Source of the DNA: Cellulosilyticum sp.
GTDB taxonomy: Bacteria; Bacillota; Clostridia; Lachnospirales; Cellulosilyticaceae
NCBI GenBank assembly: GCA_029851645.1
Contig: JARKVN010000141.1
Location: forward strand, 1-43,211
Length of the DNA stretch: 43,211 nucleotides
Direction: 5' to 3'
Translations under genes and position numbers: made by a program
Notes under the pieces: generated by a model
The model's input: the letters and a program-made list of their open reading frames with translations, nothing else
What the model was told of the DNA's origin: nothing
The model's database searches: none
In this document: positions 1 to 5,385 of the stretch, piece after piece
Numbering within the stretch: position 1 is the first letter of the stretch
Layout: each line of letters starts with the position of its first letter

Positions 1-1117
1 AACCAAATACAGTAATGACTCTCCCCTTTGCGAACTCTTTAATCGTTGATAACACATTTTCAAGCCCATCAGGTGTATGTGCATAGTCTACTAATACACT
101 ATAGCCATTTTTTGAAGTGAAAGATTGTACACGTCCAGGTACACCATTTACTTTTGCCAAAGCATCCATAATATGTGTCATAGGAATCCCTATACTTCTT
201 GCTGCCGCAATAACTGCTAGCGTATTATAAACTGTAAATCTTCCTGGAATAGGTACAGATACCTTAAATGTTCCTTCAGGGCAAGTTAAAGTATAGGTCA
301 CACCCGCTGCTGACACAACAATATTACTTGCAGAGTAATCAGCTCCTTTATCCATACCATAAGTAACTAACTTACAAGTTGCTTCTTCTGTCATCCAATG
401 CGCCATGTCACTATCCATATTAACAATGCCTATTTCACAACACTTAAAAAGTTTAGCCTTAGCTTTTGCATAGTTTTCCATGGTCTTATGAAAGTCCAAG
501 TGATCTTGTGTCAGATTTGTAAAAATACCCACTTTAAATTGAGAGCCAACTGTTCTTTTTAATTCTAGTGCATGAGAAGATACTTCCATTAAAGCCGCAT
601 CTACAGATTCATCCGCCATCTTCCTAAAAAGACGTTGTAAATCTACAGACTCTGGTGTCGTACGTTCTGCTTTTAGAATTTGGTTACCAATACGATTTTC
701 AATGGTACCAATAATCCCTACTTTTTTATGATATGCTTCAAGAACTTGACCTAATAAGAATGTAATACTTGTTTTACCATTAGTTCCTGTTACCCCTACT
801 AGCTCAAAGTTTTTGGATGGATGCCCATATGCATTGGTTGCTATAAGCGCCATTGCTAATCTTGTATCCTCTGTTTGAATAACGGTGATAGCATCACTCT
901 CGATTTCAATTGCTTTTTGTACCAATATCACCTTTGCACCATTCTCTATAGCCGCTCCAATATATTGATGTCCATCTGTTTGAAACCCTTCAATTGCAAT
1001 AAATAATCCATGCTTTGTTTTAATCCTTGAATCATAGATGATTTGATCAACTTCTTGTTCCATATTACCTTTTATACATTTATAATTTAACCCTACTAAT
1101 AAGTCCTTTAATTTCAT
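1..1117 (-). CDS. murE: MurE, UDP-MurNAc-tripeptide synthetase (C-terminal part outside the window)
   Basis: Mur ligase that adds the third amino acid of the peptidoglycan stem peptide to UDP-MurNAc-L-Ala-D-Glu in the cytoplasm, using ATP. About 372 codons are visible from the ATG at 1117; the gene runs off the left edge. The ATP-binding loop GTNGKT lies near residues 111-116, preceded by FELVGVT. The central-domain stretch around TTPESVDLQRLF and the later DYAHTPDGLENVL are typical of MurE. The start is fixed by AGGAGG seven bases upstream. It is the last visible gene of the division and cell wall cluster, 62 bases after spoVD, as in Bacillus subtilis. The motif that decides between diaminopimelate and lysine lies beyond the edge, so substrate choice cannot be read here; diaminopimelate is expected for a spore former. 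Confidence 0.93.
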   Translation of the reverse strand, partial: MKLKDLLVGLNYKCIKGNMEQEVDQIIYDSRIKTKHGLFIAIEGFQTDGHQYIGAAIENGAKVILVQKAIEIESDAITVIQTEDTRLAMALIATNAYGHPSKNFELVGVTGTNGKTSITFLLGQVLEAYHKKVGIIGTIENRIGNQILKAERTTPESVDLQRLFRKMADESVDAALMEVSSHALELKRTVGSQFKVGIFTNLTQDHLDFHKTMENYAKAKAKLFKCCEIGIVNMDSDMAHWMTEEATCKLVTYGMDKGADYSASNIVVSAAGVTYTLTCPEGTFKVSVPIPGRFTVYNTLAVIAAARSIGIPMTHIMDALAKVNGVPGRVQSFTSKNGYSVLVDYAHTPDGLENVLSTIKEFAKGRVITVFG

Positions 1118-1179
1118 GGCAATCCTCCTTTGATATCATTTGTTATTATATCATGGTTAATCAAGATTAAAAAGCTATC

Positions 1180-3129
1180 TTATTGTGTATATAAGATTAT
1201 TTTTGTTGTCTTGTTAATTGTTTCTCCTGCAAGTGGGAATTGGGAAACCACCACCTTTCCCTCTCCTTGAATATCTACACCAATCCCTGCTTCTTCTGCA
1301 CACTTTTTAGCATCTGATAAACTTAACCCTCTAAAATTAGGAGTGACGATCTTTTGGACCTCTTCTTTCTTTAATTCTTCTTCTGAGTAGCTAGGTTCTA
1401 CCCCTAAATAAGGCAGAGCATTTTCTAAAACTTCCTTCATAACTGGCCCAGCAATAGTTCCTCCATAGTAGGTTCCTTGTGGCTCATCAATAATAACAAG
1501 TGTCATAATCTTAGGATCTTCTGCTGGTGCAAAAGATAAAAATGATGCCGTATACTTACCAGAACCCCTTGGTAACTTTTGTGAAGTTGCTGTTTTTCCC
1601 CCAATACGATATCCAGGGATATATGCTTTTTTACCACCACCTTCAGAAACAACACTTTCTAATATCTTCTTTAGACGTTCACTGGTCTTGGTAGATATAA
1701 TTTGTTCTCCCTTCCCATAGTCAAAAGTAGTTAGGGTGGCTCCTGTATCATCGACAATTTCTTTGCCAAAATGAGGCGTTACCTTATACCCTCCATTAAC
1801 TGCAGCTGCTGCTGCTGAAAGAAGTTGCATAGGGGTAATTTGAAAAGATTGACCAAAGGACATTGTTGCTAGTTCTACTGGTCCTATATTACTTTTATTA
1901 TGTAAAATACCAACTGCTTCGCCTGGCAAATCTATATTGGTTTTGGATTTAAATCCAAACTGAATCATATAATCATAAAACTTACTTGCACCAATGCGTT
2001 CTGCCACCTCCATAAAGACAGGATTACAAGAGTTTTGAACCCCTTGCACAAAATTTTCCGCGCCATGTGAACGTGGACTTCTCCAACATTTGATGGTTCG
2101 ACCAGCTACTGTTCGGCTTCCTGTACAATTGAATGGACTATTTTCATCAACGACACTTTCCTCTAATCCCATAGCTGCTGTAAAAATTTTAAAGGTGGAA
2201 CCTGGTTCATAAGTATCATTAATGGTAAAGTTACGCCACATTTGATTGAGATAGTTTTGCTTTTCCTGAGCTGAATACAGCTCCCAACTACTTGCTAAAG
2301 CTTCATCATTTATTGTGAAAGGTTCATTTAAATTAAAATCTGGTTTAGTAGCTAATGCATAAATTTCACCATTTTGTGGATCCATCATGATAATAGCACC
2401 TCGTCTTGCCCCCTTCATTTCTACGGCTTTCTCAATAGCTTGCTCTGCATATTGTTGCAAAGTTAGATCCAATGTTGTCACTAAGTGATTACCGTTTATA
2501 GGATCTTTTCTAACTTCTACCTCTTCTTCTCGTCTTTGCCCTTTACCGTTTGTTTCCATTAAAATTTTACCTGGTGTTCCTTTTAAGTAACTATCATACT
2601 TCACTTCAAGCCCAACAATCCCCTGATTATCCTTTCCCACAAATCCTAATGTTTGAGAAGCTAAAGAATTAAATGGATAGTACCTCTTGGAATCTTCATC
2701 CACTTTCACCCCTGGTAAATTTAATGCCCTAACTTCATCTGCTATAGATTTATCTACTTTCGTTGCAATACGCATGAAGGCTACTGATTTAGTTACCTTT
2801 TTGTAAGTTTCCTCATAATCCAGATTTAAGTGCTCAGATAATACTTTTGCAACTCTTTCTGGGTCTGTCACTTGTGCATGAACTACACCAATAGTTGCTA
2901 CTGATGCACTTTTAGCTAATATATTAAAATTACGGTCATATATATTTCCTCTTGTCGGTGCAATGGTTCGGTCCCTTGTTTGCTGCTCTTTTGCTAGGCT
3001 TTGTAGTTTTTCACCCTCCACTAATTGAATATAAGCTAATCGACCACCCATTGCCACTGTCGCTGCAATAAAAATAATCATTAGCATAAATATTCTTCTC
3101 TTAAGTTTAAGAGAAACTTGGTTATGCAT
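1180..3129 (-). CDS. spoVD: SpoVD-type class B penicillin-binding protein
   Basis: Membrane-anchored transpeptidase that cross-links peptidoglycan; in Bacillus SpoVD makes spore cortex. The protein has 649 residues with a short cytoplasmic tail, one membrane segment near 13-33, a dimerisation domain, a transpeptidase domain and one PASTA domain near 592-649. Active-site motifs are STFK at 311-314 and SCN at 367-369. The third motif reads KTA at 512-514 instead of the usual KTG. Cysteines 335 and 348 flank a short loop, at places comparable to the redox-controlled cysteines of Bacillus SpoVD. One PASTA domain and the position between the two-PASTA PBP and murE support SpoVD over PBP2B. The ribosome binding site sits in the 3' arm of a hairpin at 3136-3185, which suggests separate control from pbpB. 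Confidence 0.88.
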   Translation of the reverse strand: MHNQVSLKLKRRIFMLMIIFIAATVAMGGRLAYIQLVEGEKLQSLAKEQQTRDRTIAPTRGNIYDRNFNILAKSASVATIGVVHAQVTDPERVAKVLSEHLNLDYEETYKKVTKSVAFMRIATKVDKSIADEVRALNLPGVKVDEDSKRYYPFNSLASQTLGFVGKDNQGIVGLEVKYDSYLKGTPGKILMETNGKGQRREEEVEVRKDPINGNHLVTTLDLTLQQYAEQAIEKAVEMKGARRGAIIMMDPQNGEIYALATKPDFNLNEPFTINDEALASSWELYSAQEKQNYLNQMWRNFTINDTYEPGSTFKIFTAAMGLEESVVDENSPFNCTGSRTVAGRTIKCWRSPRSHGAENFVQGVQNSCNPVFMEVAERIGASKFYDYMIQFGFKSKTNIDLPGEAVGILHNKSNIGPVELATMSFGQSFQITPMQLLSAAAAAVNGGYKVTPHFGKEIVDDTGATLTTFDYGKGEQIISTKTSERLKKILESVVSEGGGKKAYIPGYRIGGKTATSQKLPRGSGKYTASFLSFAPAEDPKIMTLVIIDEPQGTYYGGTIAGPVMKEVLENALPYLGVEPSYSEEELKKEEVQKIVTPNFRGLSLSDAKKCAEEAGIGVDIQGEGKVVVSQFPLAGETINKTTKIILYTQ

Positions 3130-3135
3130 AAAAAA

Positions 3136-3185
3136 ACTCCTCCCTATAAACTTGTCTTACCTAAAGTTTATTTATAAGGAGGAGT
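3136..3185 (-). promoter_or_regulatory. Terminator-like hairpin between pbpB and spoVD that covers the spoVD ribosome binding site
   Basis: Read on the minus strand, ACTCCTCC (3185-3178) pairs with GGAGGAGT (3143-3136), and ATAAACTT (3171-3164) pairs with AAGTTTAT (3153-3146), around a 10-base loop. A small internal loop separates the two helices. The 3' arm is followed at once by seven T and then the spoVD ATG, so the element looks like an intrinsic terminator. The same 3' arm contains the only strong Shine-Dalgarno sequence for spoVD. The pairing is seen in the sequence; the effect on transcription and translation is inferred. Confidence 0.65.
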
Positions 3186-3192
3186 CATTATG

Positions 3193-5385
3193 CTATGATT
3201 CGCTGATTTGTACAATTATTTTATTATTCTTTTCTATTTTAGTACCTGCCTCAGGTATTTGTTTTGTGATTTTACCACTACCTGTTCCCTCTATGGTAAA
3301 GTTGCCTTCTACAAGTTCTATAGCCTCTTCCATCGTTTTGTCTATTAAATTAGGTACCTCTACTAAAGTATCAGGCTGATCTGTTTTAGTATATAAGATG
3401 ACTTTATCACCAATTCCCCACTTTTCTCCTGCTTCTGGGTATTGTTCGTTCACCTTAAGGCCATTACCAGAAATTTGATACTGAAAACCTTTTTGCTCTA
3501 ATAATTTAATCGCCTCGTATAAATTTTTCCCTGCTACCTCTGGAACGCTGGCTATATCTTCTCTTTCTTCTGTACTACTAGCATCTTTAGGAATGCCTAA
3601 ATAAGGGAATATATTTTCCATCATCTCTTTAAATGCTTTAGTTGGTACCCCTGTACGTTCTGGCATGTTATCAAACACAATAAGTGCCACAACCTGTGGA
3701 TTTTCAACAGGTGCAAATCCTATAAAAGAAATAATATAGTTATCTGGATCTCTAGTAGTTGTTCCTTCAATAAACTTTTCACCTGTTCCTGTTTTTCCAC
3801 CAATACTATACCCCGGAATATAAGCTGTTGTTCCGGTTCCTCCCTCATCTACTACTTTTTTCAAATCCTTTTTTACTAAATCTGTAATAGGGGTAGAAAT
3901 CACTTGTCGCCTTGTCACTTTATCGTGTTTTAATAAACTTTCACCCGTACTACTTGTAATATCTGATACCACATAAGGCTCCATTAAATAGCCTCCATTA
4001 ATAACAGATGAGAAAGCTGTAATAAGCTGTATAGGTGTTACAGTAAACGTTTGTCCAATAGAAGAAGTCGCTTTTTGCACAGGCCCTAAGCTCGTATGTA
4101 AAATACCTGTTTCCTCACCAGCTAACTCAATACCTGTTTTTTCTCCAAAACCATAGCGACTCATATATTCCATAAAGATATCATTATCAAGCTTTTCAGC
4201 AATTTCCATCATGGCAACATTACAAGAATTCGCTAGAGCCTCTCCTAAAGTTTGAACCCCATGACCATCTGTTTTCCAACAATGAATGGTACGGTCTGCT
4301 ACTTGTTTATGTCCTTGACAATAATAAGTATCTGTTTCTTTGATCACATTCTCTTCTAAAGCCATAGCCACTAGTAGTGGCTTAAATGTTGAACCCGGTT
4401 CATAATTATATTGAATACTATAATTTTTCCAAGCACTTAATAAAGCTTTTGTTTGTTGTTCCTGTTTCATATTTACCCAAACATTTTTTCCCAATTGCTC
4501 TGATAGGTCATTATAAGTATTAGGATTAAAGCTTGGATAAGAGTACATCCCCAAAATCTCTCCTGAATTAGGATTCATAATAATAGCACTTGCACTAATG
4601 GGCTTATATTGTTTAATGTATTTCTCCATGACCTGTGAAACATACTGCTGTATCATTTTATCTAATGTTAAGGTAACTGTTGCTCCTGCTTTAGGTTCTT
4701 GAAGCTCCTTGGTTATAATATTACTTTGCTGAAATTGTTGATAAATACGACCTTCCTGTCCTGTTAGATAATCATCATATTCTTGTTCAACACCATATTG
4801 CCCCTCTTCATTTTTATTATAAAATCCTAAAACTTGAGCAGCTAATTCGCCATTAGGGTAATATCTAATATAAGTTTCTTTAACATCTACCCCTCCTAAT
4901 TTTGCAAGCTCATCAGCTACTTCTGTTTCTAATTCTATTTTTTGAACTAAAGGAAGCCATTTTGAATTTGGATTATTTTGAATCCGCTCCTCAACACTTG
5001 CTTTTATCTTTTCTACGGTTTGTCCTTCAATATGGGTTGCTAAAGTTTCATAGACCTTAATTCTAGCCTCTTCCTCCAAATTATTCACTATTTCAAATGG
5101 ACTTAGTGTAATATCATAGGCTAATAAGCTTGTTGCTAGTGGTCTTTCATTGCGATCCTGTATGAGGCCTCGTGGTGCTTCAATGGTTTTCTCACTTACA
5201 TTCATATTTGAAAGTGCTCCCCTTGCATATTCTTCACCTTTAAATAAATTAATGACAATAATTTCTACACCAAACATAGCAAATGCTAGGCACATACTTG
5301 TACCTACAAAAAAGATACGCCTGTTAAGGCGTGTCTTTTTGGGTAGTGTATTCTTCAATTTTTTTTTCTTTGTTTGTTTCTTCAT
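3193..5385 (-). CDS. pbpB: PBP2B/FtsI-type class B penicillin-binding protein with two PASTA domains
   Basis: Septal transpeptidase of the divisome, working outside the membrane with FtsL and an FtsW-type polymerase. It has 730 residues: a lysine-rich cytoplasmic tail, one membrane segment near 24-47, a dimerisation domain, a transpeptidase domain, then PASTA domains near 612-668 and 672-729. Active-site motifs are STFK at 332-335, SCN at 387-389 and KTG at 531-533. Cysteines 356 and 369 lie between the first two motifs. Two PASTA domains and the place between ftsL and spoVD match Bacillus pbpB. It starts 15 bases after ftsL and is probably translated from the rsmH promoter transcript. The unusually basic first 25 residues fit the positive-inside rule. 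Confidence 0.9.
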   Translation of the reverse strand: MKKQTKKKKLKNTLPKKTRLNRRIFFVGTSMCLAFAMFGVEIIVINLFKGEEYARGALSNMNVSEKTIEAPRGLIQDRNERPLATSLLAYDITLSPFEIVNNLEEEARIKVYETLATHIEGQTVEKIKASVEERIQNNPNSKWLPLVQKIELETEVADELAKLGGVDVKETYIRYYPNGELAAQVLGFYNKNEEGQYGVEQEYDDYLTGQEGRIYQQFQQSNIITKELQEPKAGATVTLTLDKMIQQYVSQVMEKYIKQYKPISASAIIMNPNSGEILGMYSYPSFNPNTYNDLSEQLGKNVWVNMKQEQQTKALLSAWKNYSIQYNYEPGSTFKPLLVAMALEENVIKETDTYYCQGHKQVADRTIHCWKTDGHGVQTLGEALANSCNVAMMEIAEKLDNDIFMEYMSRYGFGEKTGIELAGEETGILHTSLGPVQKATSSIGQTFTVTPIQLITAFSSVINGGYLMEPYVVSDITSSTGESLLKHDKVTRRQVISTPITDLVKKDLKKVVDEGGTGTTAYIPGYSIGGKTGTGEKFIEGTTTRDPDNYIISFIGFAPVENPQVVALIVFDNMPERTGVPTKAFKEMMENIFPYLGIPKDASSTEEREDIASVPEVAGKNLYEAIKLLEQKGFQYQISGNGLKVNEQYPEAGEKWGIGDKVILYTKTDQPDTLVEVPNLIDKTMEEAIELVEGNFTIEGTGSGKITKQIPEAGTKIEKNNKIIVQISES

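Follow-up and report, generated by a model that had tools for sequence, protein, structure and literature searches.

How is spoVD, which encodes a sporulation PBP, controlled when the gene lies directly behind another class B PBP gene in a division and cell-wall cluster? We addressed this question in a DNA stretch of 43,211 nucleotides from Cellulosilyticum sp. (assembly GCA_029851645.1, contig JARKVN010000141.1), which in its whole length is referred to as the window, and in the corresponding loci of related genomes. From these comparisons, the 63-bp gap ahead of spoVD is predicted to act as a promoter-choice switch, a reading to which we assign a probability of about 0.75.

The spoVD locus

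On the minus strand of the window the genes follow each other in the order mraW, an ftsL-like gene, a class B PBP gene (pbpB-like), spoVD and murE. The features flanking the gap are:

3193..5385, minus strand: upstream class B PBP gene (pbpB/ftsI-like, 730 aa, PASTA), its stop 7 nt ahead of the hairpin 5' arm
1180..3129, minus strand: spoVD (649 aa)
1145..1153, minus strand: extended -10 TGATATAAT in the spoVD-murE gap, likely the sigma-A promoter of murE
2..1117, minus strand: murE, truncated by the contig end

The pbpB stop at 3193 and the spoVD start at 3129 leave a gap of 63 nt. Both PBPs scored below the cut-off of 688 in the NCBIfam spoVD model, the downstream protein with 635 bits and the upstream one with 517 bits. 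The downstream gene can be named spoVD from its place in the gene order, its higher score and the sigma-E-type promoter described below, in agreement with a preliminary description of this DNA; that the upstream gene encodes the vegetative division PBP, as also stated there, is something we infer. The genes sigE, spoIVA, spoIIIAA, spoIID and spoIIID are all present in the family. In the contigs of this MAG (86% complete) sigE is absent, probably owing to the contig break within murE, and in relatives sigE lies about 11 kb further on. Ahead of murE, about 25 nt past the spoVD stop, TGnTATAAT is conserved in most family members, and TGATATAAT is likely a vegetative promoter of this gene. Two loci of the family showed irregularities. 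The spoVD gene of G003 (G003:C11:58220-60159) is apparently broken by an in-frame TAA and a frame change between two pieces, or the sequence is misassembled. In L023 (G022) the promoter is separated from the apparent pbpB stop by about 260 nt of additional sequence, and a frameshift may have shortened pbpB.

Hairpin and probable promoter in the pbpB-spoVD gap

The following elements were located in the gap:

3187..3192, minus strand: -35 region CATAAT (ATA core 3191-3189), right behind the pbpB stop codon; ATA in 19 of 20 family motif sequences
3170..3186, minus strand: hairpin 5' arm (anti-SD) GACUCCUCCUUAUAAAU, which is also most of the -35/-10 spacer
3165..3172, minus strand: -10 region AATAAACT (family form NATANANT), 16 nt past ATA; family columns AAATAnAnT invariant
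3156..3160, minus strand: predicted sigma-E transcript start in the loop, approximate, placed from the -10 position
3150..3159, minus strand: SpoIIID-like box TAAGACAAGT in the loop, overlapping the predicted start; conserved in genera g1, g5 and g9
3135..3151, minus strand: hairpin 3' arm GUUUAUAGGGAGGAGUU
3137..3144, minus strand: spoVD Shine-Dalgarno sequence (SD) GGGAGGAG, within the 3' arm
3130..3136, minus strand: T7 tract between SD and ATG, a possible U-tract of an intrinsic terminator

The preliminary description had placed a hairpin at 3136-3185, with the spoVD SD in its 3' arm and seven T running into the start codon. The SD (3144-3137) and the seven T (3136-3130) directly before the ATG at 3129 were found as described, and the hairpin exists as well, but its arms (3186-3170 and 3151-3135) reach slightly beyond the span given there. 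The stem comprises 17 pairs, G-U pairs included, and the loop of 18 nt is long for an intrinsic terminator; the mechanical terminator scan, with its loop limit of 8, therefore overlooked the structure. Its minimum free energy was -25.6 kcal/mol compared to -9.6 +/- 2.6 kcal/mol for shuffled sequences (z -6.3), and none of 200 shuffles was as stable. An Rfam covariance-model search returned only sub-threshold chance matches, none of them near the gathering score. A small upstream reading frame in the window, ATGACTCCTCCTTATAAATAA (MTPPYK), was discarded as a candidate because the relatives G005, G004 and G001 lack its ATG or its stop.

The 5' arm is at the same time a promoter spacer, since a sigma-E-type promoter of the form ATA-N16-NATANANT seems to span it. 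The spoIVA gene, a sigma-E gene of the same genus, carries GGTATA-N16-AATATATT with equal spacing, and in C. difficile the -35 region of sigma-E promoters is ATA, that of sigma-K promoters AC (PMC3789822). In the window the -10 region AATAAACT is a weak match, and its first base is A, compared to C in the CATAnAnT-like sigma-E consensus. A sigma-K reading was rejected because the -35 region has no conserved AC. A sigma-A reading of the -10 region (TAAACT) was likewise rejected, as no TTGACA lies at 17 nt and ATA at a fixed distance is conserved instead. The assignment to sigma-E, the start site and the timing are predictions. The preliminary description had expected a shorter spoVD message from a promoter inside pbpB; the promoter lies about where it was guessed, but between the genes. 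As the predicted start falls into the loop, the 5' arm would be missing from the sporulation mRNA. Upstream of spoIVA in the family (L039-L059) there are seemingly two close sigma-E-like promoters, of which the second contains GTACCCATACA[AT]T, nearly invariant across all genera. Upstream of spoIIIAA (L062-L081) many members have no ATA -35; in its stead GTTCTAG, a -35 of another form, is conserved about 16 nt ahead of GCATATA.

In RNA models of the window, the SD of the read-through transcript had an unpaired probability of 0.00 and the AUG of 0.01-0.06. For RNA starting 6-8 nt past the -10 region these values rose to 0.43 and about 0.25, which means that even the short transcript exposes its SD only about half of the time in the model. 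Over 51 loci the median SD opening was 0.18 for the long and 0.41 for the short transcript, and the short one was more open in 45 of them. The SD is thus predicted to be paired in the long transcript and freer in the short one, and from this difference promoter choice should set translation.

SpoIIID binds DNA with the consensus WWRRACARNY. In 12 of 13 sequences of genera g1, g5 and g9 the loop box (TAAGACAAGT or TAAGACAACT) fits this consensus, and in none of the other genera. The spoIIID gene is present in G000, and at spoIID of some relatives the same core, GTAAGACAAG, is found on the other strand. In B. subtilis, spoVD is driven by sigma-E and repressed by SpoIIID (PMC517825, citing Zhang et al. 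1997). We take the loop box to be a putative SpoIIID operator over the start point.

Conservation of promoter and arms

The pbpB-spoVD gap was compared in 23 genomes of the family, 20 of which entered the alignment. In 20 of the 23 genomes the promoter was present along with a hairpin that pairs the SD, or with a recognizable remnant of such a hairpin; G008, G010 and G011 had no trap. Apart from the SD, invariant letters of the alignment were AAATAnAnT, located between arm and loop, and the ATA that follows the pbpB stop, and the distance of 16 between -35 and -10 was kept in nearly all members while the arms varied. RNAalifold predicted 13 pairs, 7 of which had pair-keeping changes on both sides, so the comparison of related genomes for compensating changes, proposed in the preliminary description, came out in favour of the pairing. 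In L027 and L028 (G011 and G010), where the trap is lost, a 14-bp hairpin AACTGCTGC/GCAGCAGTT follows the pbpB stop directly; it has no T-run and lies apart from the SD.

Sixty further gaps were taken from other families of the Lachnospirales. Among all gaps of at least 45 nt (75; another 8 were shorter than 45 nt) the N16 motif occurred in 39, compared to 1.7 expected from dinucleotide shuffles, and outside the family it occurred in 21 gaps compared to 1.5 expected. Although their sequences are unrelated, the arms of f20 (CCCCCATTATTGC/GCAATAATGGGGG), f13 (ACGCCCTGTTTTTTCC/GGAGAAGGCAGGGGTGT) and f17 (ACCTCATAAAAGC/GCTTTTATGGGGT) are positioned alike with respect to the promoter, with the layouts ATA-ATACCCCCATTATTGC-AATAGAAT ... 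GCAATAATGGGGGAATAATATG, ATA-CACGCCCTGTTTTTTC-CATATATT ... GGAGAAGGCAGGGGTG and ATA-ACCTCATAAAAGCAAA-AATAAAAT ... GCTTTTATGGGGT, respectively; further cases were found in f5 and f13. When the arms of 31 representatives were swapped, cognate pairs of spacer and leader had a mean of -14.2 kcal/mol compared to -8.0 kcal/mol for permuted pairs (p<=5e-5, the cognate value lying beyond all 20,000 permutations). This result held separately inside and outside the family. Related rows are not independent, but the outside-family test mixes many families with unrelated arms. Closure of the SD was tested against shuffled upstream bases and reached p<=0.05 in 21 of 75 gaps, with 3.75 expected; this per-genome test has only moderate strength, as the C-rich composition is retained in the shuffles. 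Covariation within the family and coevolving unrelated arms across the order thus lend comparative support to the ribosome binding site trap that the preliminary description had predicted.

The trap is not essential, since some Lachnospirales have short gaps or no trap. Outside the order no such trap was found at 20 loci, a weak comparison as the gene order differs in many of them. In L135 (G032) and L128 (G045) the promoter and the matching arm are retained and an insert separates them from the SD arm; in L135 CACCTTTCATAAA precedes TTTATGAAAGGTG by about 190 nt, and a trap there would be long-range.

Termination and alternative explanations

The preliminary description had also proposed that the hairpin ends most pbpB transcripts. 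With a 17-bp stem directly followed by T7 the window shows the pattern of a GC-rich stem and U-tract. Among 100 SD-bearing genes, taken from the window plus seven long loci of the family, there were six T-runs of at least 5 before a start codon, and since all six are those of spoVD, a chance origin in the family is unlikely. Such a run is present in 14 of 20 family members, with T4 only in g5 and g6, but in just 4 of 31 motif loci outside the family; the f20 genomes have GGGGGAATAATATG and still retain the trap. A terminator is therefore plausible in the family, but it does not seem to belong to what is conserved; the trap probably does, and the terminator is a likely addition in this family. 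Termination before spoVD would be tolerated because murE probably owns a conserved promoter; the supposed need of murE for read-through was for this reason dropped as an argument against termination. In L116, L158 and L151, ordinary terminator-like hairpins with T-runs were observed in the pbpB-spoVD gap, away from the SD, and no trap was seen. It is as if ordinary terminators were another way of insulating spoVD elsewhere in the order.

We predict the following course of events. During growth, division-operon transcripts running past pbpB would carry both arms, SD and AUG would be paired and no SpoVD would be made; in this family a fraction of these messages may also be terminated at the T-run. 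A sigma-E transcript of the mother cell would begin in the loop without the 5' arm, leaving the SD free, and SpoVD would be made. In the nearest genera, SpoIIID at the start-point site would later switch the promoter off, as at B. subtilis spoVD. A wider version of this model appears possible to us but somewhat doubtful. It holds that four functions (sigma-E promoter, anti-SD spacer, SpoIIID operator and terminator U-tract) are superposed in 63 bp, that the spacer was kept as an anti-SD order-wide while the letters of the arm were replaced, and that promoter choice alone decides spoVD translation.

The most serious competitor, though an unlikely one, is that the element simply ends the division operon as an intrinsic terminator and overlaps the SD only because the gap is short. 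The T7 right behind a GC-rich stem base, the restriction of T-runs to spoVD, the ordinary terminators in the same gap at three loci and the low cost of stopping ahead of murE fit this explanation, but arms outside the family coevolve with the SD where T-runs are mostly missing, the runs of g5 and g6 are short, and termination does not require use of the SD. Translational coupling, in which a ribosome finishing pbpB would open the 5' arm and thereby tie SpoVD synthesis to that of PbpB, is quite improbable: the arm of the window, 7 nt past the stop, is in reach of a terminating ribosome, but the trap is kept with stop-to-promoter distances of up to 47 nt (L119 47, L102 35, L129 27), beyond such reach, and the position of the promoter in the arm is left unexplained.

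We give very little weight to a ligand- or protein-binding regulatory RNA with the loop GGTAAGACAA as recognition site. The loop is indeed conserved in three genera, but other genera keep arms and promoter and not the loop, its letters match the SpoIIID DNA box, which at spoIID of some relatives is on the other strand, and no Rfam match came near the gathering score. Least probable of all is that a C/T-rich promoter spacer pairs with a purine-rich SD by chance. Composition alone does partly close the SD and many single gaps are not significant; nevertheless, the excess of significant gaps over expectation, the arm-swap result and the compensatory changes argue against it.

Discussion

If the promoter-choice switch is true, it explains how a sporulation PBP can lie within an always-active division and cell-wall cluster and stay unmade in growing cells. 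Some relatives have lost the trap or carry an ordinary terminator instead, which suggests that selection acts on insulation itself. Moreover, a promoter spacer antisense to the SD is a testable rule by which other genes insulated alike can be searched for. To our knowledge, phage T4 and a single Bacillus gene are the main known examples of read-through traps, and order-wide coevolution is unusual comparative support for such a mechanism.

In the open-access literature we found no report of a ribosome binding site trap at spoVD, B. subtilis included. The B. subtilis gene is orthologous and likewise has a sigma-E promoter and SpoIIID repression (PMC517825). In C. difficile, spoVD likewise encodes a sporulation class B PBP, but it is apparently co-transcribed with a small upstream gene and has its promoter before that gene, and no tandem pbpB is described (PMC8417463).

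For B. subtilis sigG, a hairpin of 20+ bp has been suggested to keep read-through mRNA from being translated (Masuda 1988, in PMC5942855), and it cannot form in mRNA from sigG's own promoter. Both hairpins would act against messages read through from an upstream operon, whereas gene, sigma factors (F/G) and operon are different, and the upstream transcript is a sporulation transcript there and presumably a vegetative one here. In phage T4, the ribosome binding site of gene e is hidden by a hairpin in long early transcripts, and late promoters in the DNA encoding the 5' strand yield transcripts that lack it and are translated (PMC3014915). The trap and the internal late promoter are thus shared with the predicted spoVD element, but gene e is a lysis gene (lysozyme) with a phage late promoter. 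We know of no repressor box or T-run in the gene e element. The spoVD element would function like the T4 gene e and sigG systems without being homologous to them. The class of mechanism is therefore already known, and the spoVD element, as predicted from the compared genomes, is a new, order-wide instance of it.
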